Program-made: the position numbers and the translations under genes
Assembly: GCF_041261205.1 (NCBI RefSeq)
Contig: NZ_JBGCCH010000004.1
Location: 62,001-126,000, forward strand
Direction: 5' to 3'
Length of the DNA stretch: 64,000 bases
From: Catenulispora sp. MAP5-51
GTDB lineage: Bacteria > Actinomycetota > Actinomycetes > Streptomycetales > Catenulisporaceae
Part shown: positions 17,091-32,244 of the stretch, in pieces
How the letters are laid out: the number at the start of each line of letters is the position of its first letter
Numbering within the stretch: position 1 is the first letter of the stretch
Notes under the pieces: generated by a model
The model's input: the letters and a program-made list of their open reading frames with translations, nothing else
What the model was told of the DNA's origin: nothing
The model's database searches: none

Positions 17091-17284
17091 GAGGGCTCCT
17101 GGTTCCGGGGCGGACGGACGGGGGTGGATGCTCTCCACGAGGGGCAACACCGGAGTCACCATCGGTGTTCCGGGCACCGAACCATTATCTCCGGTCCCGC
17201 CGGCCGCACCGGTATCGGCCCAGGTGAAAGCCTCATCTGCGCGACCGCTCCCGTCTTGTCGGTGCGGTCTGCGAAAATCCTGGA

Positions 17285-22548: not shown

Positions 22549-22625
22549 GCCGAACCCCTGAGCCCGAACCCCTGACGTCACAAAGCCCCACCCCGTTGTC
22601 GGTGCCCTGAAATAGTGTTCGGGGC

Positions 22626-23957
22626 ATGGCTGAACGTTGGACCGCCGCCCAGGTCAACTCCCTGGCCCCGGACGCCCCGTCGCAGAAGGCGGGCGCGAAA
22701 CTCGGAGTGCCGGGTCCGTGGTCGGACACGGGATACCTGGACGCCGAGCGGCTGTTGTGGGGGGACTGCAAAGGCAGCGGGAGCAAGCCGTACCAGGTCA
22801 CGGTCTCCGTGGCGGACTCGGACACGGCGTATCAGTGCACCTGCCCCAGCAGGAAGTTCCCATGCAAGCACGCGCTGGGCCTGCTGCTGTTGTGGGCGGC
22901 GGGCACGATCGCGGACACCGAGACGCTCCCGGACCGGGTCGAGGCCTGGGCCGAGTCCCGGCGGGACCGCGCGGAGAAGTCCGCGGCCCGCAGCGTCGCC
23001 AAGGCCGAGAAGGCCGCCGCCGATCCCGAGGGCGCGGCCAAGCGCGCCGCCCAGCGCGCCGAGCGGATCGGCACGGGCCTGGCCGACCTGGACCGCTGGC
23101 TCACCGACCAGATCGCGGCCGGCATCAGCGACTCCGCCACGCTCTCCTACAGCGCCGTGGACCCGGTCGCCAAGCGGCTGGTGGACGCGCAGGCGCCGGG
23201 GGTGGCGGGCCGGGTCCGGATGCTGGCCTCCGCCCGGTCGGCCTCCGGCGACGCCTGGCCGGACGCGGTCCTGGCCGAGTTCGCCCGGCTGCACCTGCTG
23301 TGCCAGGCCTGGACCCGCCTGCCCGAGCTGCCGCCGGCGATGCAGGACACCGTGCGGCGGCGGATCGGGATCTCGGTCGACGCCGACACCGTGCGCCGCG
23401 ACGGCGAGCGGGTCGCCGACCGCTGGCATGTCCTGGGCTCCCGCGACCGCGCCGCCGACAAGCTCACCGAGCGCCGGATCTGGCTGCGCGGCGCCGAGAG
23501 CGGCCGGACCGCGATGCTGCTGGCCTTCGGCGCCATGCAGCAGGCGCCGACCCTGGCGCTGCCGGTCGGCGCGGTCTACCGGGCCGAGATGGTGTTCCAC
23601 TCCGAGGTGCTGCCGCTGCGTGCGCAGATGGAGGCCGGCGAGCTCGACTCGGCGACCACGGCGGCCGCACCCGCCGGCGGGACCCTGCGGGCCGCGGCCG
23701 ACGAGTTCGCCGCCGCCCTGGCCGCCGACCCGTGGCAGGAGGGCTGGCCGGTGGTGATCGCCGGCGCGGTCCCGGACCGGGACGGCGAGCTCACCGACGG
23801 CGAGGGCCGCCGCGTCCCGCTGCTGTGCGAGGACTCCGCCCTGTGGCGGCTGCTGGCGGTCTCCGGCGGCCATCCGGTGACGGTGTTCGGCGAGTACACC
23901 GACGCGGGTCTGGAACCGCTCACCGTGTGGGCCGAGGAGTCGGCGGTCGCGCTGTGA
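22626..23957 (+). CDS. SWIM zinc-finger protein
   Basis: 443 aa. A SWIM motif CxC-x6-CxH is formed by Cys71, Cys73, Cys80 and His82 in YQCTCPSRKFPCKHALGL, a zinc site used for DNA or protein binding. The rest is helical and Ala/Arg-rich, including a charged EKSAARSVAKAEKAAADPEG linker (about residues 120-140) and a mixed alpha/beta C-terminal part. No enzymatic motif is recognised. First gene of a five-gene run with DUF5691, MoxR, DUF5682 and VWA proteins. It starts 77 bases after the B12 subunit gene. Its role is probably to recognise a target for the ATPase module; that is inference. Confidence 0.85.
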   Translation: MAERWTAAQVNSLAPDAPSQKAGAKLGVPGPWSDTGYLDAERLLWGDCKGSGSKPYQVTVSVADSDTAYQCTCPSRKFPCKHALGLLLLWAAGTIADTETLPDRVEAWAESRRDRAEKSAARSVAKAEKAAADPEGAAKRAAQRAERIGTGLADLDRWLTDQIAAGISDSATLSYSAVDPVAKRLVDAQAPGVAGRVRMLASARSASGDAWPDAVLAEFARLHLLCQAWTRLPELPPAMQDTVRRRIGISVDADTVRRDGERVADRWHVLGSRDRAADKLTERRIWLRGAESGRTAMLLAFGAMQQAPTLALPVGAVYRAEMVFHSEVLPLRAQMEAGELDSATTAAAPAGGTLRAAADEFAAALAADPWQEGWPVVIAGAVPDRDGELTDGEGRRVPLLCEDSALWRLLAVSGGHPVTVFGEYTDAGLEPLTVWAEESAVAL

Positions 23958-24114
23958 GGACGCCGGCGGGCCCGCCCGGGAGCCCCGGGAGAGGGCCGGT
24001 GATTAGGGAATTTCAGGGTATTGCCACGGACCCCGTAAGTTGTCAGTGGCGTGGTGCACAATCTGTGGACATCAGTGCGAAGGCTGTGGGGATCTCCTAC
24101 TCGGCGGAAGCGCG

Positions 24115-25737
24115 GTGAGCACCATGAACGAAGCCTCCAATCAGACCGGCTCCGAGGTCTGGCAGGACCTTGTCTCGACGGCCCTGGTCGGCACCGACCG
24201 TCGCACCCCGCCGGCCGCCGGAGAGTTCGCCGCGCCCGGTGACAGCCCCGCGGCGGCCCTGCTGAGCTCGGCCGCGCTCATGAGCGCGTGGCGGCGGGCC
24301 GGCAACGCCGGTTCGGCGTACTCGGCCGAGCTCGTCGGCGATCAGGCCGAGCAGGCCGGGCATGGCGGCCAGGCCGCCGGAGTGCCCGAGGGCGTGCCCG
24401 CGGCGAAGTCGGCGGCGGTCGACGCCCGCCCGCTGCTCTCGACCGCGACCTCGGCCCGGCTCACGGCGTTGGTGGCTTCCCGGTCCGAGGCGCTCCCGGA
24501 GTACCTGGGCGCCGCCGCCAAGACCGGCTGCCGCGCCCCGGCCGAGCTGCTGCCCCCGCTGTTCGACTACGCCCGCGGCAGCATCGCGGTCCGCGCCGAC
24601 CTGATGAGACTGGCCGGCCCGCGCGGCACCTGGCTGGCCAAGCAGAACCAGCAGTGGTCGACCTTCACCCGCTTCGCCGCCGCACCGGACCCCGAGGCGT
24701 GGCTGTCCGACAAGCCGCACGAGCGCATCGGCTACCTGACCTGGTTCCGCGCCAAGGACCCGGCCTCGGCCCGGGCACTGGTCGAGGAGGCGTGGACGCA
24801 GTCCGGCCCGAGCGCGGGGGGTCTGTCGGCGGAGACCCGTGCCGCGTACGTCGAGGCGCTGGCCGTGGGCCTGGGCCCGGAGGACGAGCCGTTCCTGGAA
24901 GCCGCCCTGGACGACAAGTCCCGCCAGGTCCGCGCCGAGGCGGTCCGGCTGCTGGCCACGCTGCCCTCCTCGCGGTTCGCCGAACGCATGACCGCGCGCC
25001 TGCACGCGCGCGTCCAGGTGTCCGTCGAGGGCACCGCGGTCCTGGTCACGCTCACCGAGGATCCTTCCGCGGCCACCGAGGACGAGGCCCGCGACGGCAT
25101 CGGCGAGGGCTGGGTGCAGACCGAGGAGGAGCGCCGGCTGGCCCGGATGCAGCCCTCGTACTGGCTGGAGGACCTCATAGCCTCGACGCCGCTGACGGCG
25201 TGGCAGCGCTATGGCCTGTCGCCCGCCGAGCTGCTGCGCGCCACTGCCGCGAACCGCTGGGAGGCCAACTCCTGCCACCGCGGCTGGCGCTCGGCCACCC
25301 TGCGGCAGAAGAACTCGGAGTGGGCAGAGGCGTTCTGCGCCGTCAACGCCGCCACCGACATGCTGGAGCTGCTCTCCGACGAGGCCGCCGAGCGCTGGTG
25401 TCTGAGCGTGGTGGCCAGCCACCGGTCGCAGTACTCGATCCACAGCGCCCCGATCATCCTGAGCCGGCTGGGCCGGCCCTGGCCGGACCCGGTCTGCCAG
25501 GCCCTGCTCGACTCGATCCCGGCCTACCTGCCGAACGCCACCCGCAACGACGTGGCCCGCTTCTTCGGCATGGACAACCTGGCCGGCCGCTGGATGCCGC
25601 CGTCGTTCGCCGACGCGGTCGCGGCCAAGGCCGAGCGGATCCGCCCCGACCTCCCGCTGTGGGCCGAGGACCTGGACGACCTGGCGGCGATGCTGCGGGA
25701 CCGGGCCCTGATGCTCGCCGAGCTGGACTCGGTCTGA
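24115..25737 (+). CDS. DUF5691-type helical-repeat protein
   Basis: 540 aa from GTG 24115 (GGAAG four bases upstream); an ATG at 24124 is the alternative. Almost entirely helical, with blocks resembling HEAT repeats (about residues 250-330, FLEAALDDKSRQVRAEAVRLLATLP). The opening WQDLVSTALVGTDRRTPP and the later YWLEDLIASTPLTAWQ look like family signatures. I believe this family is called DUF5691; function unknown. It lies between the SWIM and MoxR genes in the same direction, so a scaffold or client-binding role in that module is plausible but inferred. Confidence 0.82.
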   Translation: MSTMNEASNQTGSEVWQDLVSTALVGTDRRTPPAAGEFAAPGDSPAAALLSSAALMSAWRRAGNAGSAYSAELVGDQAEQAGHGGQAAGVPEGVPAAKSAAVDARPLLSTATSARLTALVASRSEALPEYLGAAAKTGCRAPAELLPPLFDYARGSIAVRADLMRLAGPRGTWLAKQNQQWSTFTRFAAAPDPEAWLSDKPHERIGYLTWFRAKDPASARALVEEAWTQSGPSAGGLSAETRAAYVEALAVGLGPEDEPFLEAALDDKSRQVRAEAVRLLATLPSSRFAERMTARLHARVQVSVEGTAVLVTLTEDPSAATEDEARDGIGEGWVQTEEERRLARMQPSYWLEDLIASTPLTAWQRYGLSPAELLRATAANRWEANSCHRGWRSATLRQKNSEWAEAFCAVNAATDMLELLSDEAAERWCLSVVASHRSQYSIHSAPIILSRLGRPWPDPVCQALLDSIPAYLPNATRNDVARFFGMDNLAGRWMPPSFADAVAAKAERIRPDLPLWAEDLDDLAAMLRDRALMLAELDSV

Positions 25738-25842
25738 CGACGCCGGACCCTGTCTAACGATCTGGACTGTGTCCGAACCCTTCCCCCAAGGTGGACCCTT
25801 GAGTGGGTGCCACCTTGCCGAAAACCGAAAGTTGCCTTCGCC

Positions 25843-26946
25843 ATGACTGCCACTGAAGCCACTGTCCTTCGCCAGCACGCCGAGCACGCCTTCGCCGGGG
25901 AACTGGAAGCCCTGCGCAAAGCCGACGCCGACTCCGGCCGTCCCAAGCCGCCGCGCTGGAAGCTCTCGCCATGGGCGGTCGCGACCTATCTGCTGGGCGG
26001 CACGCTGCAGGACGGCACCGTCATCACGGCGAAGTACATCGGCCCGCGGCGCATCGTCGAGATCGCCATCGCCACCCTGGCCACCGACCGCGCGCTGCTG
26101 CTGGTCGGCGTCCCGGGCACCGCGAAGACCTGGGTCTCCGAGCACCTGGCCGCGGCCATCTCCGGCGACTCCACGCTGCTGGTGCAGGGCACGGCCGGCA
26201 CGCCGGAGGAGGCGATGCGCTACGGCTGGAACTACGCGCAGCTGCTGGCCCACGGCCCCTCGCGCGACGCGCTGGTCCCCAGCCCCCTGATGCGCGCCAT
26301 GTCCACCGGCGCGATCGCCCGCATCGAGGAGCTCACCCGCATACCGGCCGACGTGCAGGACACGCTGATCACGATCCTGTCGGAGAAGACGCTGCCGATC
26401 CCGGAGCTAGGCCAGGAGACGCAGGCGGAGAAGGGCTTCAGCGTCATCGCCACCGCGAACGACCGCGACAAGGGCGTCAACGACCTGTCCTCGGCGCTGC
26501 GCCGCCGGTTCAACACCGTGGTCCTGCCGCTGCCGGCCACCGCCGAGGAGGAGATCGAGATCGTCTCCCAGCGGGTGAAGTCCCTCGGCAAGGCGCTGGA
26601 GCTGCCCGAGGTCCCGGCCGCGCACGAGGAGATCCGCCGCGTGGTCACGGTCTTCCGCGAGCTGCGCGCCGGCCTGACCGAGGACGGCAAGACCAAGCTG
26701 AAGACCCCCTCGGGCACCCTGTCCCCGGCCGAGGCGATCTCGGTGGTGGCCGGCGGCATCGCGCTGGCCGCGCACTTCGGCGACGGCACGCTGCGCCCGG
26801 CCGACGTGGCCGCCGGCATCCTCGGCGCGGTGGTGAAGGACTCCTCCACCGACAAGCTGGTGTGGCAGGAGTACCTGGAGACCGTCGCCCGTGGGCGCGA
26901 GGGCTGGACCGACTTCTACCGCAGCTGCCGCGAGGTCAGCGCCTGA
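25843..26946 (+). CDS. MoxR-family AAA+ ATPase
   Basis: 367 aa from ATG 25843. AAA+ chaperone-type ATPase of the MoxR group: Walker A GVPGTAKT (about residues 89-96), an acidic Walker B equivalent in IARIEELTRIPADVQ (about 158-170, Glu in place of the first Asp), sensor 1 in FSVIATANDRDKG, and an arginine finger region SSALRRRFN. MoxR ATPases work with VWA proteins to insert metals or remodel protein complexes. The next gene starts on its stop codon (TGATG). No good ribosome site is visible; an earlier start at 25807 is possible. Confidence 0.9.
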   Translation: MTATEATVLRQHAEHAFAGELEALRKADADSGRPKPPRWKLSPWAVATYLLGGTLQDGTVITAKYIGPRRIVEIAIATLATDRALLLVGVPGTAKTWVSEHLAAAISGDSTLLVQGTAGTPEEAMRYGWNYAQLLAHGPSRDALVPSPLMRAMSTGAIARIEELTRIPADVQDTLITILSEKTLPIPELGQETQAEKGFSVIATANDRDKGVNDLSSALRRRFNTVVLPLPATAEEEIEIVSQRVKSLGKALELPEVPAAHEEIRRVVTVFRELRAGLTEDGKTKLKTPSGTLSPAEAISVVAGGIALAAHFGDGTLRPADVAAGILGAVVKDSSTDKLVWQEYLETVARGREGWTDFYRSCREVSA

Positions 26947-29264
26947 TGACCGTCACCCTGCTGGGGATCCGCCACCACGGACCCGGCTCGGCGCGGGCGG
27001 TCGCGGCGGCGCTGGCGGAGCTGAAGCCGGACGCGATCCTCATCGAGGGACCGCCGGAGGCCGACGCGCTGATCCCGCTGGCCGCGCATCCCGCGATGCG
27101 CCCGCCGGTCGCGCTGCTGGTCTACGCCGACGCCGATCCCTCACGCGCCGGGTTCTGGCCCTTCGCCGAGTTCAGCCCGGAGTGGGTCGCCATCAAGTGC
27201 GGCGCCGAGGCCGGCGTTCCGGTGCGCTTCATCGACCTTCCTTCGGGCCACCGATTCGCGGAGCTCCCGAAGGACGAAGACAGCGAAGATCGCGGCGAAG
27301 ACCAAGCCGAACAGGAGGAAGACGAACAGGACCATCAACACGCCGAGGCCGGGCACGCCTTAGAGAGTATCCAGCGCACCGACCCCATCGCCGCCCTGGC
27401 CACCGCCGCCGGCTACGACGACCCCGAGCGCTGGTGGGAGGACGTCGTCGAGCAGCGCGCCGACGGCACCTTCTCGGCCCTGGACTCCTTCGCCGCCATC
27501 GCCGACGCGATGACCGTCGTGCGCGACCGGGCGCGTCCGGAGGACGAGCAGCGCGAGGCGTACATGCGCCAGTGCATCCGCGAGGAGGTCAAGGCCGGCC
27601 GTGAGCGCATCGCCGTGGTCTGCGGCGCCTTCCACGTCCCGGCGCTGGCCGAGATCGGCCCGGCCGCCCCGGACGCCAAGATCCTCAAGGAGCTGCCGAA
27701 GAAGGCGAAGACCACGGCGACCTGGGTCCCGTGGACGCACGGCCGCCTGTCCTTCCGCTCCGGCTACGGCGCCGGCATCGAGTCGCCGGGCTGGTACCAC
27801 CATCTGTTCACCGCGCCGGACCAGGTCGTGGAACGCTGGCTCGTCCGCGTGGCCGAACTCTTCCGTGCCGAGGACCTGCCGGTCTCCTCAGCGCACCTGA
27901 TCGAGGCCACGCGCCTGGCCGAGACCCTGGCCACCCTGCGCGGCCGCACCCTGGCCGGGCTGACCGAGGTCTCCGAGGCCGTGCAGTCAGTGCTCTGCGG
28001 CGGCTACGACGCGCAGATGGCGCTGGTCCGGGACAAGCTGGTGATCGGGGAGGACCTCGGCGAGGTGCCGCCGGACGTGCCGGTCGTGCCGCTGGCCGCG
28101 GACCTGGCCCGGGAGCAGAAGCGGCTGCGCTTCCAGCCCAAGCCCGGCCAGACCGAGGCCAAGCTGGACCTGCGCAAGCCCCACGACGGCGAGAAGTCCC
28201 GGCTGCTGCACCGCCTGAACCTCCTGGGCATCGACTGGGGCACCCTGGGCCGCTCCCAGGGCAGCGGCACCTTCTGGGAGACCTGGTCGCTGGACTGGCA
28301 GCCGGAGTTCGCGGTCAAGCTGGTCGAGGCCGCGATCTGGGGCACCACCGTGGCCACCGCGGCCGCGGCGAAGGCCGCGGACCTGGCGACGAACGCCGAG
28401 CAGCTGGCCGGGATCACCGACGTCGTCGAGGCCTGCCTGCTCGCCGACCTGCCGGCCGCGCTGGACCCGATCATGACCCTGCTGGCCGACCGCGCGGCCG
28501 TGGACACCGACGTCGCGCACCTGGCCGACGCCCTGCCCGCGCTGGCCAGGACCCTGCGGTACACCGACGTGCGCGGCACCGACGCCGCGGCGCTGCGCAA
28601 GGTCGCCGACACCCTGGTGGTCCGTATCGCGCTGGGCTTCCCGCAGGCCTGCTCCGGGCTGGACGAGGACGGCGCGCGGCGGATGCGGGCCCGGATGGAC
28701 AACACGCACCAGGCCGTCGGGCTGCTCGACGACCCCGCCGCGAGCGACGAGTGGTACCGGGCCATGGCCCTGGTCGCCGACCGCGAGGGCATGACCGGGC
28801 TGCTCGCCGGGCGCGCCGTGCGGCTGCTCTACGACGCCTCCCGCATCGACGGCGACGAGCTGGGCCGCCGCATGGGCCTGGCCCTGACCCCGGGCGTGCC
28901 GCCGGCCGAGGCCGCGGCCTGGCTGGACGGCGTGCTCTCCGGCGGGGCGATGCTGCTGATCCACGACCCGGTGCTGCTGGGCCTGCTGGACCGGTGGATC
29001 GCCGGGATCCCCGCGGACACCTTCACCGACGTGCTGCCACTGCTGCGCCGCACGTTCGCCAACTTCGAAGGCCCCGAACGCCGCAAGATCGGCGAGCTGG
29101 CCCGGACCGTCGGCGCCGCGCCGCTGGCCGGGGTCGCGGCCGGGGCCGAACCGCCGGGCTTCGACCGGGACCGCGCCGGGCGCGCGCTGCCCGTGGTGCG
29201 GATGCTGCTCGGGATCAAGGAAGAGAGCCAGACAGGTGGCGGGAAGGGGAGCGCAGATGGCTGA
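26946..29264 (+). CDS. DUF5682-type protein with TraB/EreA-like N-terminal fold
   Basis: 772 aa, starting on the MoxR stop codon. The N-terminal 260 residues read like the TraB/ChaN/erythromycin-esterase superfamily: LLGIRHHGPGSARAV, ILIEGPPEAD, and GAFHVPAL place His, Glu and His where that fold keeps its active site. A strongly acidic linker (DEDSEDRGEDQAEQEEDEQ, about residues 109-127) interrupts it. The remaining 500 residues are mostly helical. I believe the family is DUF5682; no function is established. The hydrolase idea is inference. It overlaps the VWA gene by eight bases, so MoxR, DUF5682 and VWA are made together. Confidence 0.85.
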   Translation: MTVTLLGIRHHGPGSARAVAAALAELKPDAILIEGPPEADALIPLAAHPAMRPPVALLVYADADPSRAGFWPFAEFSPEWVAIKCGAEAGVPVRFIDLPSGHRFAELPKDEDSEDRGEDQAEQEEDEQDHQHAEAGHALESIQRTDPIAALATAAGYDDPERWWEDVVEQRADGTFSALDSFAAIADAMTVVRDRARPEDEQREAYMRQCIREEVKAGRERIAVVCGAFHVPALAEIGPAAPDAKILKELPKKAKTTATWVPWTHGRLSFRSGYGAGIESPGWYHHLFTAPDQVVERWLVRVAELFRAEDLPVSSAHLIEATRLAETLATLRGRTLAGLTEVSEAVQSVLCGGYDAQMALVRDKLVIGEDLGEVPPDVPVVPLAADLAREQKRLRFQPKPGQTEAKLDLRKPHDGEKSRLLHRLNLLGIDWGTLGRSQGSGTFWETWSLDWQPEFAVKLVEAAIWGTTVATAAAAKAADLATNAEQLAGITDVVEACLLADLPAALDPIMTLLADRAAVDTDVAHLADALPALARTLRYTDVRGTDAAALRKVADTLVVRIALGFPQACSGLDEDGARRMRARMDNTHQAVGLLDDPAASDEWYRAMALVADREGMTGLLAGRAVRLLYDASRIDGDELGRRMGLALTPGVPPAEAAAWLDGVLSGGAMLLIHDPVLLGLLDRWIAGIPADTFTDVLPLLRRTFANFEGPERRKIGELARTVGAAPLAGVAAGAEPPGFDRDRAGRALPVVRMLLGIKEESQTGGGKGSADG

Positions 29265-30465
29265 CACACTGGCCGCCGCCGACGAGGAGCGCATGCGCCG
29301 CTGGCGCCTGGTCCTGGGCGGAGACGACGACGGCACCGGCTGCAAGCTGACCGGCGTGGACCTGGAGATGGACAAGGCGCTGGCGGCCCTCTACAACAAG
29401 GGCGGCTACGAGACCGGCACCGGCACCGGCGCGGTCGGCGTCCGCAGCCGGGGCCGCGGCGGACAGCAGACGCCGCGCAGCGCCGGCCTCGGGGCGTCCT
29501 CGCCGCAGGTCGCGCGCTGGCTCGGCGACATCCGCGCCTACTTCCCGCAGACCGTCGTCCAGGTCATGCAGCGCGACGCCATCGACCGCCTGAACCTGCG
29601 CCAGCTGCTGCTGGAGCCGGAGATGATGGAGTCGGTCGAGCCGGACGTGCACCTGGTCGGCACCCTGCTGTCGCTGAACCACCTGATGCCCGCCGAGACC
29701 AAGGAGACCGCGCGCCAGGTGGTGCGCCGGCTGGTCGAGGATCTGGAGCGGCGGCTCGGCGCCAAACTGCGCGCCACGGTCAGCGGCGCGCTGGACAAGA
29801 GCACGCGCACCAGCCGGCCCCGGCACAGCGACATCGACTGGGGCCGCACCATCCAGGTGAACCTGAAGAACTACCTGCCGGAGTACAAGACGGTGGTGCC
29901 CGAGCGGCTGGTCGGCTACGCGCGCAAGGAACGCGCGGTGAAGCGCGACGTGGTGCTGGCCATCGACCAGTCGGGCTCGATGGCCGCCTCGGTGGTGTAC
30001 GCCTCGGTGTTCGGCGCGGTGCTGGCGTCCCTGAAGTCGCTGAAGACCTCGCTGGTGGTCTTCGACACCGCGGTGGTGGACCTGACGCCGCAGCTGTCGG
30101 ACCCGGTGGACGTGCTGTTCGGCACGCAGCTCGGCGGCGGGACCGACATCAACCGCGCCATCGCCTACAGCCAGTCGCTGATCAGCCGCCCGACGGAGTC
30201 CATCTTCATCCTGATCTCCGACCTCTACGAAGGCGGGGTCCGCCGCGAGATGCTGCGCCGGATCGCGGAGATGACGGCGGCCGGCACGCAGGTCATCGTG
30301 CTGCTGGCGCTGTCCGACGAGGGCGCGCCGTCCTACGACCGGGAGAACGCCTCGGCGCTGGCGGCGCTGGGGGTGCCGGCCTTCGCCTGCACGCCGGACA
30401 AGTTCGGGGACCTGATGGCCGCGGCGATCCAGCGGCAGGATCTGGGCAAGTTCATGGAGCAGTAG
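29257..30465 (+). CDS. VWA-domain protein, partner of MoxR ATPase
   Basis: 402 aa from ATG 29257, eight bases inside the previous gene. The N-terminal half is helical with a Gly/Arg-rich stretch. The C-terminal half is a von Willebrand A domain with a complete metal-ion adhesion site: Asp237-x-Ser239-x-Ser241 (DQSGSM), Thr296 (GGGTD) and Asp322 (ISDLYEGG). This is the pattern of VWA proteins that act with MoxR ATPases, such as ViaA with RavA. It likely presents clients to, or is remodelled by, the ATPase two genes upstream. No signal peptide or membrane segment. Confidence 0.92.
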   Translation: MADTLAAADEERMRRWRLVLGGDDDGTGCKLTGVDLEMDKALAALYNKGGYETGTGTGAVGVRSRGRGGQQTPRSAGLGASSPQVARWLGDIRAYFPQTVVQVMQRDAIDRLNLRQLLLEPEMMESVEPDVHLVGTLLSLNHLMPAETKETARQVVRRLVEDLERRLGAKLRATVSGALDKSTRTSRPRHSDIDWGRTIQVNLKNYLPEYKTVVPERLVGYARKERAVKRDVVLAIDQSGSMAASVVYASVFGAVLASLKSLKTSLVVFDTAVVDLTPQLSDPVDVLFGTQLGGGTDINRAIAYSQSLISRPTESIFILISDLYEGGVRREMLRRIAEMTAAGTQVIVLLALSDEGAPSYDRENASALAALGVPAFACTPDKFGDLMAAAIQRQDLGKFMEQ

Positions 30466-30588
30466 ACCAGCAGAGCTTTCCCTGGTGACGCTGACGCAGG
30501 CTGCTTATACGGTGTGCGCTATGCGGGGGAACAGAGAAGCAAAGCCCGGCCATCGCCGCCGCCAACGATCACGTCAACGGCAACGACT

Positions 30589-32244
30589 ATGGGGCGGCGG
30601 CCGGCCGTGAGCGTGAAGCGTCTGCGCGCGGGCGATCCGCGCGGCGTGGGCCCGTACCGCTTCCTGGGCCGCCTCGGCGCGGGCGGCATGGGCCTGGTGT
30701 GCCTCGCCCGCGATCCGGACGGCCGCCTGGTCGCGGTGAAGCTGATCCACACCGCGATCGCCGCCGACCCGGACTACCGCCGCCGGTTCGCCCGCGAGGT
30801 GCGCGCGGCGGCCGCGATCCGGGGCCGCTTCACGGCCGCGGTGCTCGCCGCGGACCCCGACGCCCCACAGCCCTGGTACGCGGCCGAGTTCGTCGACGGC
30901 CCGACCCTCGGCGAGGTGGTCCGCCGCTCCGGTCCGCTGCCCGCCCCGGCCCTGCGCGCCCTGGCCGCCGGACTCGCCGAAGCCCTGGCGGCGCTGGAAG
31001 CCGCCGGCCTGGTCCACCGCGACGTGAAGCCGGACAACATCCTGCTGGCGCCCGACGGCCCCAAGCTCATCGACTTCGGCCTGGCCCACCGCGCCACCGA
31101 CAGCGTCCTGACCCGCGCCGGCACGGTCCTCGGCTCGCCCGGCTACATGGCGCCGGAACAGATCGGCGGCCAGGGCGCCACGACCGCCTCGGACGTCTTC
31201 GCCCTCGGCGCGGTCCTGGCCTACGCCGCGCAGGGGCACGGCCCCTTCGGCACCGGCCCCGCCGAGGTGGTCGCCTACCGCACCAGGTTCGGCGATCCGC
31301 GGGTGGACGGCGTTCCCGAGGAGTTCCGCGGGCCGCTGCTGACCTGTCTGGCCAGGGAACCCGCCGAGCGGCCGACGCCCCGCGACCTGACAGCGCGCTG
31401 GTCGGTGCGGTCCGACGAGCTGGACACGCTGAACCAGGCCGGGCGCGGCCACCACGAGGTCCAGCCCCTGCGCGATCTGCTCTTCGGCAAGGTCGCGGGG
31501 GTCATGCCGGCCCTGGACCCCTGGCTTCCGGCGCCCGCCCCCTACCCCGGCGAGCCGCAGCCGGGCGCCGCGCGGTCCTGGCCTCCACAGTCCGCCGGCG
31601 ATCCCGACATGCCGACCCTGGCTACCGCGCCTCCGATCTCGCTACCGCCGGGCTGGACGGCTGACCCGTTCCCGCGCAGCACCCCTTGGTGGCACCAGCC
31701 GGTCGGCGCGGACCGGCTGCCCCGCAATCCGGTCCGCGACCTCGTGCTCGCCGGCCCGGTCGCGGGCACGGTCCTGGGGTTCGCCGGCATCCCCGCCACG
31801 AGTACCGTGACCACGATCCTGCTGGGCTCGACCGCGATGGCGCTCGGCTTCGTCCTCGGTGTCCGGCGCAGCTTCATCACCCTCGCGTTCTTCGCCATGC
31901 AAGCGACTTCGGTACCGCATTTCCTCGAAGTTGTGATCCCCGTCCTGTCCGCCGCCGTCATCGCCCGAGTCGGCGGCCTCAAGCGGCAACCGGTCCTGTG
32001 CCTCGCGGTCGGCGTCGCCGCATATATCGCCGCGCAGGTGGCAGCCCTGGTCTGGGTCGCCCGCGGGACCGGCGCCGACTTCGCCGCCGTCTGGCGCGCC
32101 GGCAGCGGCGGAGTGCTGATCTACCGGGACGCCGCCATCGCCGCGGGGTGCGGCGCTGCCGTCGGCTTCCTGGCGCTCATAGGATCGTCGAAGGCGGCCG
32201 TCAAGGTGGACGGTCCTTACCGCGCGACAGGAGTGAACCGATGA
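30589..32244 (+). CDS. Membrane Ser/Thr protein kinase
   Basis: 551 aa from ATG 30589; GTG at 30607 or 30613 is equally possible, as none has a strong ribosome site. All Hanks motifs are present: glycine loop GRLGAGGMG, Lys50 in VAVK, HRDVKPDN with catalytic Asp145, Asp162-Phe-Gly, and GSPGYMAPEQ. After the kinase comes a Pro-rich linker (about residues 300-370), then four or five hydrophobic segments to the C-terminus. There is no PASTA or other extracellular sensor domain; the membrane part itself would be the sensor. It overlaps pepN by ATGA. Confidence 0.93.
   Translation: MGRRPAVSVKRLRAGDPRGVGPYRFLGRLGAGGMGLVCLARDPDGRLVAVKLIHTAIAADPDYRRRFAREVRAAAAIRGRFTAAVLAADPDAPQPWYAAEFVDGPTLGEVVRRSGPLPAPALRALAAGLAEALAALEAAGLVHRDVKPDNILLAPDGPKLIDFGLAHRATDSVLTRAGTVLGSPGYMAPEQIGGQGATTASDVFALGAVLAYAAQGHGPFGTGPAEVVAYRTRFGDPRVDGVPEEFRGPLLTCLAREPAERPTPRDLTARWSVRSDELDTLNQAGRGHHEVQPLRDLLFGKVAGVMPALDPWLPAPAPYPGEPQPGAARSWPPQSAGDPDMPTLATAPPISLPPGWTADPFPRSTPWWHQPVGADRLPRNPVRDLVLAGPVAGTVLGFAGIPATSTVTTILLGSTAMALGFVLGVRRSFITLAFFAMQATSVPHFLEVVIPVLSAAVIARVGGLKRQPVLCLAVGVAAYIAAQVAALVWVARGTGADFAAVWRAGSGGVLIYRDAAIAAGCGAAVGFLALIGSSKAAVKVDGPYRATGVNR

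Follow-up and report, generated by a model that had tools for sequence, protein, structure and literature searches.

What do the five co-directional genes of a Catenulispora sp. MAP5-51 cassette do, and what turns them on? The cassette lies in the window, by which we mean the whole 64-kb stretch (64,000 nucleotides, nt) of contig NZ_JBGCCH010000004.1 analysed here. It encodes a SWIM zinc-finger protein, a DUF5691 protein, a MoxR ATPase, a DUF5682 protein and a von Willebrand factor A (VWA) protein, all on the + strand (Table 1). The original prediction had described such a one-direction set, and each of the five members is backed by Pfam. Our analysis adds a candidate promoter which that prediction had overlooked: upstream of the SWIM gene, the sequence carries an exact RecA-NDp/PafBC-type motif with -26 geometry, a new finding. 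Judging from this motif, induction of the cassette by DNA damage is likely. We give a probability of roughly 60% to the cassette being a DNA-damage-inducible MoxR-VWA remodelling machine which acts on nucleoprotein, a client that predicted folds make plausible.

Table 1. Cassette genes and candidate promoter elements in the window (aa, amino acids; E, E value)
Feature	Position	Strand	Length	Details
RecA-NDp/PafBC-type promoter of the SWIM gene (candidate)	22596..22618	+		TTGTCGGTG-N8-TAGTGT
SWIM zinc-finger protein	22626..23957	+	443 aa	PF04434, E 5.7e-7
Second element before DUF5691	24040..24062	+		TTGTCAGTGGCGTGGTGCACAAT; same core, CA for TA at -10
DUF5691 protein, HEAT-like helical repeat	24115..25737	+	540 aa	PF18944, E 9.8e-112
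MoxR AAA+ ATPase, YehL kind	25843..26946	+	367 aa	AAA_5, E 3.5e-39
DUF5682 protein	26946..29264	+	772 aa	PF18934, E 1.5e-277
CoxE-type VWA protein, MIDAS residues	29257..30465	+	402 aa	VWA_CoxE PF05762, E 2e-51

The candidate promoter fits the pattern TTGTCRGTG-N8-TANNNT exactly, a pattern reportedly given as the consensus by Gamulin in 2004. Were transcription to start at the SWIM ATG, its core would be centred at -26. No other exact match occurs in the window (0/100 shuffles), and the 10.9-Mb genome holds five in all (one with the reversed-pattern control), another of which starts 69 nt before recA. The bare core is found four times in the window, where 0.44 are expected: in the SWIM promoter, in the second element at 24040, inside a long open frame at 17256, and at 26847 inside the MoxR gene but on the opposite strand. 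No exact LexA-type box was found near the cassette within the window. By its sequence, the SWIM promoter is of the same rare kind as that of recA in this organism, which suggests a switch-on by DNA damage.

Published work reports that PafBC acts via the RecA-NDp motif and that the motif reaches other actinobacteria (PMC6789036, PMC8223512); a PafBC-specific -26 motif and the activation of PafBC by single-stranded DNA are described as well (PMC11804915). The window genome encodes PafC (a gene with HTH_PafC, WYL and WCX domains) and, adjoining it, a WYL/WCX gene that we take from its sequence to be PafB. Some 4 kb separate the two from PafA, and Dop follows further on (G000:C12:110001-126000, L228). 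Together with the motif, its -26 geometry and the motif at recA, the PafC gene is common to this genome and the mycobacterial PafBC (RecA-NDp) regulon. The cassette is not named in the literature on that regulon that we searched.

The motif was then sought in relatives of the cassette. Our comparison set consists of 80 loci, the best matches fetched by DUF5682 alone, among which Streptomyces and class A (the window type among the four classes set out below) are over-represented. The scan covered up to 150 nt upstream of SWIM, every region was shuffled 30 times to gauge chance, and six non-actinobacterial loci had been set aside beforehand. Upstream of SWIM in the 70 actinobacterial loci whose upstream sequence was long enough, we detected the exact motif in 30 and the relaxed form TGTCRG-N10-TANNNT in 51, with a shuffled mean of 0. 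The relaxed motif was absent upstream of the other four genes (MoxR 0/73, DUF5691 0/67, DUF5682 0/73, VWA 0/70), and the motif was also absent from the three non-actinobacterial loci having a SWIM upstream region (L091, L151 and L152). Divergent, Streptomyces-like loci carry the exact motif in 29/41 and the relaxed one in 38/41 cases. Collinear loci, which mostly keep only TGTCRG and TANNNT, carry them in 1/29 and 13/29. A second core, which like the element before DUF5691 in the window has CA for TA at -10, faces MoxR in the divergent loci; a bare core lies within 250 nt of MoxR in 39/78 loci.

The original prediction had left it to be seen whether the five genes travel together. All five are present in 69/80 loci, which is more than chance; 35 of these keep the window order, while in 34 the SWIM-DUF5691 pair is turned to face MoxR-DUF5682-VWA. 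Among the other 11 loci, ten reach a contig end (one of them, L093, has no VWA match despite 9 kb of further sequence) and L088 has SWIM at the locus edge. The nearest DUF5682 genes among these best 80 matches are two from Catenulispora, 88 and 89% identical. Leptolyngbya, Chloroflexi and Thiofilum also have full five-gene sets, as do plasmids of Deinococcus and Rhizobium. Across actinobacteria and several further phyla the genes co-occur in one or the other of these orders. Hymenobacter and Methylosinus plasmids keep the gene order but have DUF5682 or VWA broken: the Hymenobacter DUF5682 is annotated as three pieces (L071, 11736-14028), and the VWA of the Methylosinus OB3b plasmid is spread over several frames (L073, 13313-14424). 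Deinococcus and Hymenobacter have a small additional annotated gene between MoxR and DUF5682. MoxR, DUF5682 and VWA are further seen on MT835988.1 (L079), an unverified 14-kb faecal "bacteriophage" scaffold whose phage origin is doubtful and which may be bacterial.

In the 246 actinobacterial genomes surveyed, DUF5682 (PF18934) occurs in 19, with up to three copies per genome, and DUF5691 occurs above cut-off in 17, with three more below it. By coordinates, each of the 17 DUF5691 matches above cut-off has a DUF5682 match no more than 3.5 kb away, and MoxR and VWA turned up in 18/18 DUF5682 loci from these genomes. The refutation named by the original prediction, a scattering of DUF5691 and DUF5682 independent of the MoxR/VWA pair, did not come about. 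DUF5682 does, however, occur without DUF5691 in E. coli and in 2/19 actinobacterial genomes. Fusions also link the genes. SWIM-DUF5691 is a single open frame in 4/80 loci and in 2/18 others, and DUF5682-VWA is a single frame in 3/18 loci; this second fusion, which one annotated plasmid gene of Streptomyces also shows, belongs to a paralogous class. In the window, as had been predicted for the last three genes, MoxR shares one base (26946) with DUF5682, whose last 8 nt overlap VWA; these three genes are coupled. Gaps of 157 nt and 105 nt follow SWIM and DUF5691.

A crude six-frame comparison of neighbours in 30 loci, one per genus with Streptomyces twice, found no family beyond the five in more than 7/30 loci. 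The families present in 6 or 7 are restricted to Streptomycetales and include sucC; sucC and a B12-binding mutase gene were named by eye.

The cassette had been proposed as an undescribed system. This is not supported, because E. coli K-12 has a counterpart, yehL-yehM-yehP-yehQ, which corresponds to MoxR-DUF5682-VWA-SWIM. Compared with the window proteins, YehL is 42% identical to MoxR over 352 columns (E 8e-77), YehM 26% identical to DUF5682 and YehP 33% identical to VWA. The order MoxR, DUF5682, CoxE-type VWA is the same in both, and a SWIM gene is adjacent in both. In E. coli, however, that gene (yehQ) lies downstream, and past the SWIM finger neither BLAST nor HHalign supports homology to the window SWIM protein; DUF4132 (yehI) and WGR (yehF) genes stand upstream, without DUF5691. 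The yehF-yehI region is presumably molR. Two hidden relationships were tried and found no HHalign support: DUF5691 as a hidden DUF4132, the two having no detectable relation by HHalign, and the window SWIM protein as a hidden YehQ. The MoxR family has a named YehL subfamily (PMC3893208). In line with the original prediction, in the literature searched, mostly papers outside subscription, we found no function for the five-gene set or for yehLMPQ, and no mention of the names DUF5682 and DUF5691.

Gene content defines four classes. Class A is the five-gene window type; class B, the E. coli type, has DUF4132, MoxR, DUF5682, VWA and YehQ; class C has DUF4132, a giant protein, MoxR and a fused DUF5682-VWA (L048, L078); and class D has VWA before MoxR and a long DUF5682-like protein. 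The window genome also holds a class B copy (L032), and its MoxR shares 64.5% identity with E. coli YehL. That copy (G000:C3:34001-65000; L189, L032) comprises three DUF4132 stretches, MoxR, DUF5682, VWA and a YehQ-like SWIM gene. In the class C operons L034 (1605-7460) and L048 (2474-7525), MoxR is preceded by an open frame of 1,683-1,951 aa to which Pfam assigns no clear family, and the gene at the corresponding position in L078 is annotated "DNA-binding protein".

The exact motif is not confined to class A. It stands at the cassette heads of class B L035, class C L048, L191 and L078, and class D L036 and L040, and the relaxed form stands at the heads of L034, L077 and the window genome's own class B copy; two loci of G204, L037 and L038, showed no motif, nor did the head of L039. 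Exact motifs occur in 10 of the 19 genomes with DUF5682, at 5 to 40 per genome (0 or 1 with the reversed control), and nowhere in the remaining 9. As a positive control, recA carries the exact motif in all 10 genomes with any. We counted cassettes in 7 of these 10 genomes, those with complete site lists (G128, G171 and G193 were left out), using positions transcribed by hand. The exact motif lies within 8 kb upstream of 11/15 cassettes, where 0.29 are expected by a calculation that ignores clustering of promoters; by class these are A 5/7, C 3/4, D 3/3 and B 0/1.

Each of seven genomes of one family (f2), which we take to be Streptomyces, has 10-40 exact RecA-NDp motifs, recA's included. These counts, with PafC and a WYL/WCX gene near PafA/Dop, argue for a PafBC regulon there. 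A 2022 paper left open whether Streptomyces has such a regulon (PMC9380542); for Catenulispora and the genomes taken for Streptomyces, our data speak for a PafBC-type regulon at the level of sequence.

MoxR has Walker A GVPGTAKT, RIEEL at the Walker-B place, the sensor ATAND and the arginine finger ALRRRF. The full metal site predicted for the VWA protein is there, with metal-ion-dependent adhesion site (MIDAS) residues in DQSGS at 237, GGGTDI at 293 and ISDLYEGG at 320. The SWIM protein carries its motif CTCPSRKFPCKH at residue 71, followed by a helical middle. For its C-terminal half, tandem oligonucleotide-binding (OB) folds are predicted at about 261-345 and 349-438, and comparison with RPA/SSB-like tandem OB folds gave middling scores. 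In the DUF5691 protein, a HEAT_2 match (E 2.5e-4) falls under the Pfam cut-off.

The DUF5682 protein was modelled with AlphaFold2 (pLDDT 85.9) and is predicted to have an alpha/beta N-domain (about residues 1-265) followed by helical repeats, which dominate the matches of a whole-protein fold search. Within the N-domain R9, H10, E34, E79, D97 and H230 are invariant. The Tiki/TraB/ChaN superfamily has a conserved His/Glu/Asp/His pattern, and R9, H10, E34, D97 and H230, invariant in 16/16 DUF5682 proteins, fit it. Weak matches to Tiki-superfamily families occur in relatives (PF04187 in 3/16, best E 0.0058; PF01963 in 3/16, best 0.022), although unrelated single families score alike on DUF5682 proteins (CBM46 0.004, Ferrochelatase 0.013), and the window protein matches neither PF04187 nor PF01963 in Pfam. 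The N-domain is perhaps Tiki-like.

The gene set, its linkage, the fusions, the promoter motif and the PafBC genes are seen directly in the sequence, and they can be arranged in a simple model. Single-stranded DNA made by damage would activate PafBC, which would switch the cassette on via the -26 motif, in the same way as recA. The SWIM/OB-fold protein and the HEAT-like DUF5691 protein, if their predicted folds hold, may recognise damaged DNA or its nucleoprotein. By the mechanism of its family, MoxR as a hexamer, together with DUF5682 and with VWA as adaptor, would then pull apart or remodel a protein complex at that place, part of which the alpha/beta domain of DUF5682 may hydrolyse in view of its conserved residues. 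In its simplest form the model would give the reader role to SWIM and DUF5691, the adaptor and effector roles to VWA and DUF5682, and the motor role to MoxR; in the E. coli-like class, recognition would be the task of a different module, the DUF4132/WGR genes. If this is true, the DNA-damage genes include several classes of one machine, possibly up to three per genome, and the purpose of YehL becomes testable via DNA damage, yehLMPQ being without known function in E. coli K-12.

Three other explanations were weighed. The original prediction leaned to conflict systems, and a phage-conflict reading was tried first. In that case PafBC would sense single-stranded DNA of phages or plasmids, and MoxR-VWA-DUF5682 would disable the invader or the cell. 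The patchy spread over actinobacterial genomes (19/246, at most three copies each) fits such a defence, as do one copy beside type I restriction genes and YehL-like MoxR in 40 plasmid-collection records, 11 of which are probably chromosomes because they exceed 2 Mb. In published vWA-MoxR ternary conflict systems, too, one operon encodes MoxR, vWA and a third core component (PMC7159879). Their third part is VMAP, iSTAND or a beta-propeller, whereas that of the cassette is DUF5682. The bpMoxR match stays below cut-off (24.3 of 27 bits), and Pfam/PADLOC scans of the five proteins found no VMAP, iSTAND, beta-propeller or effector domain. PADLOC gives weak AAA matches only. A viral-contig scan with MoxR as query, sensitive to close relatives alone, matched 17 stretches, no relative among them. 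Unlike a defence island, 7/30 loci, all Streptomycetales, share housekeeping flanks such as sucC. We therefore regard invader defence as unlikely, and the earlier leaning finds no support in these scans.

A chaperone that inserts a metal or cofactor into one client enzyme, like CoxD-CoxE or NorQ-NorD, with stress control as a secondary trait, would explain the CoxE-type VWA and the best structural matches of MoxR among solved structures (midasin, then NorQ). The CoxD-CoxE, NorQ-NorD and RavA-ViaA pairs likewise combine an AAA+ MoxR with a MIDAS VWA. In E. coli, yehL is preceded by yehF and yehI, and molR is reported to regulate molybdenum utilisation (PMC4245954); since the molR region adjoins yehL, the client there is perhaps a molybdenum enzyme. 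Unlike those pairs, however, the cassette has three more conserved partners, a recA-like promoter and no conserved client-like neighbour: outside Streptomycetales, the 30 loci, whose neighbours were not identified singly, share no conserved neighbour. In D. radiodurans, moreover, molybdate genes are unchanged on DdrO depletion (PMC8533742). Metal insertion is thus quite unlikely. Finally, the motif could be an atypical -10/-26 promoter for general control, and the cassette a general protein chaperone. The collinear loci that retain little beyond TGTCRG and TANNNT, and the genomes with up to 40 exact motifs, would suit this. Yet recA has the exact motif in every genome with any, and classes A, B, C and D carry the motif at their heads despite differing genes and places, which makes it very unlikely. 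A damage-inducible remodelling machine remains our preferred reading.

Other reports add further links to DNA damage. E. coli molR is listed as LexA-regulated (PMC11039860). DUF4132 and WGR genes of D. radiodurans are up on DdrO depletion, and in irradiated irrE cells they did not differ from the expectation stated (PMC8533742). Both sets of data concern neighbouring or related genes and not the induction of yehLMPQ itself. In an M. smegmatis pafBC mutant, MoxR1 and MoxR2, whatever their subfamily, are reduced, as is a von Willebrand factor protein (PMC5656591). A 17-mer at the Deinococcus copy, with 2 mismatches to the radiation-response motif, and a site at the Leptolyngbya copy that fits a cyanobacterial LexA-like pattern with 1 mismatch were not counted, because ten patterns had been tried at 25 places. 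A 1-mismatch CTGTN8ACAG site 25 nt before yehF was also rejected, being one of 13 in that 25-kb E. coli stretch. In the window, an open frame for a Ser/Thr protein kinase (30514-32244, + strand), which is not among the conserved neighbours, begins 48 nt past the VWA gene.

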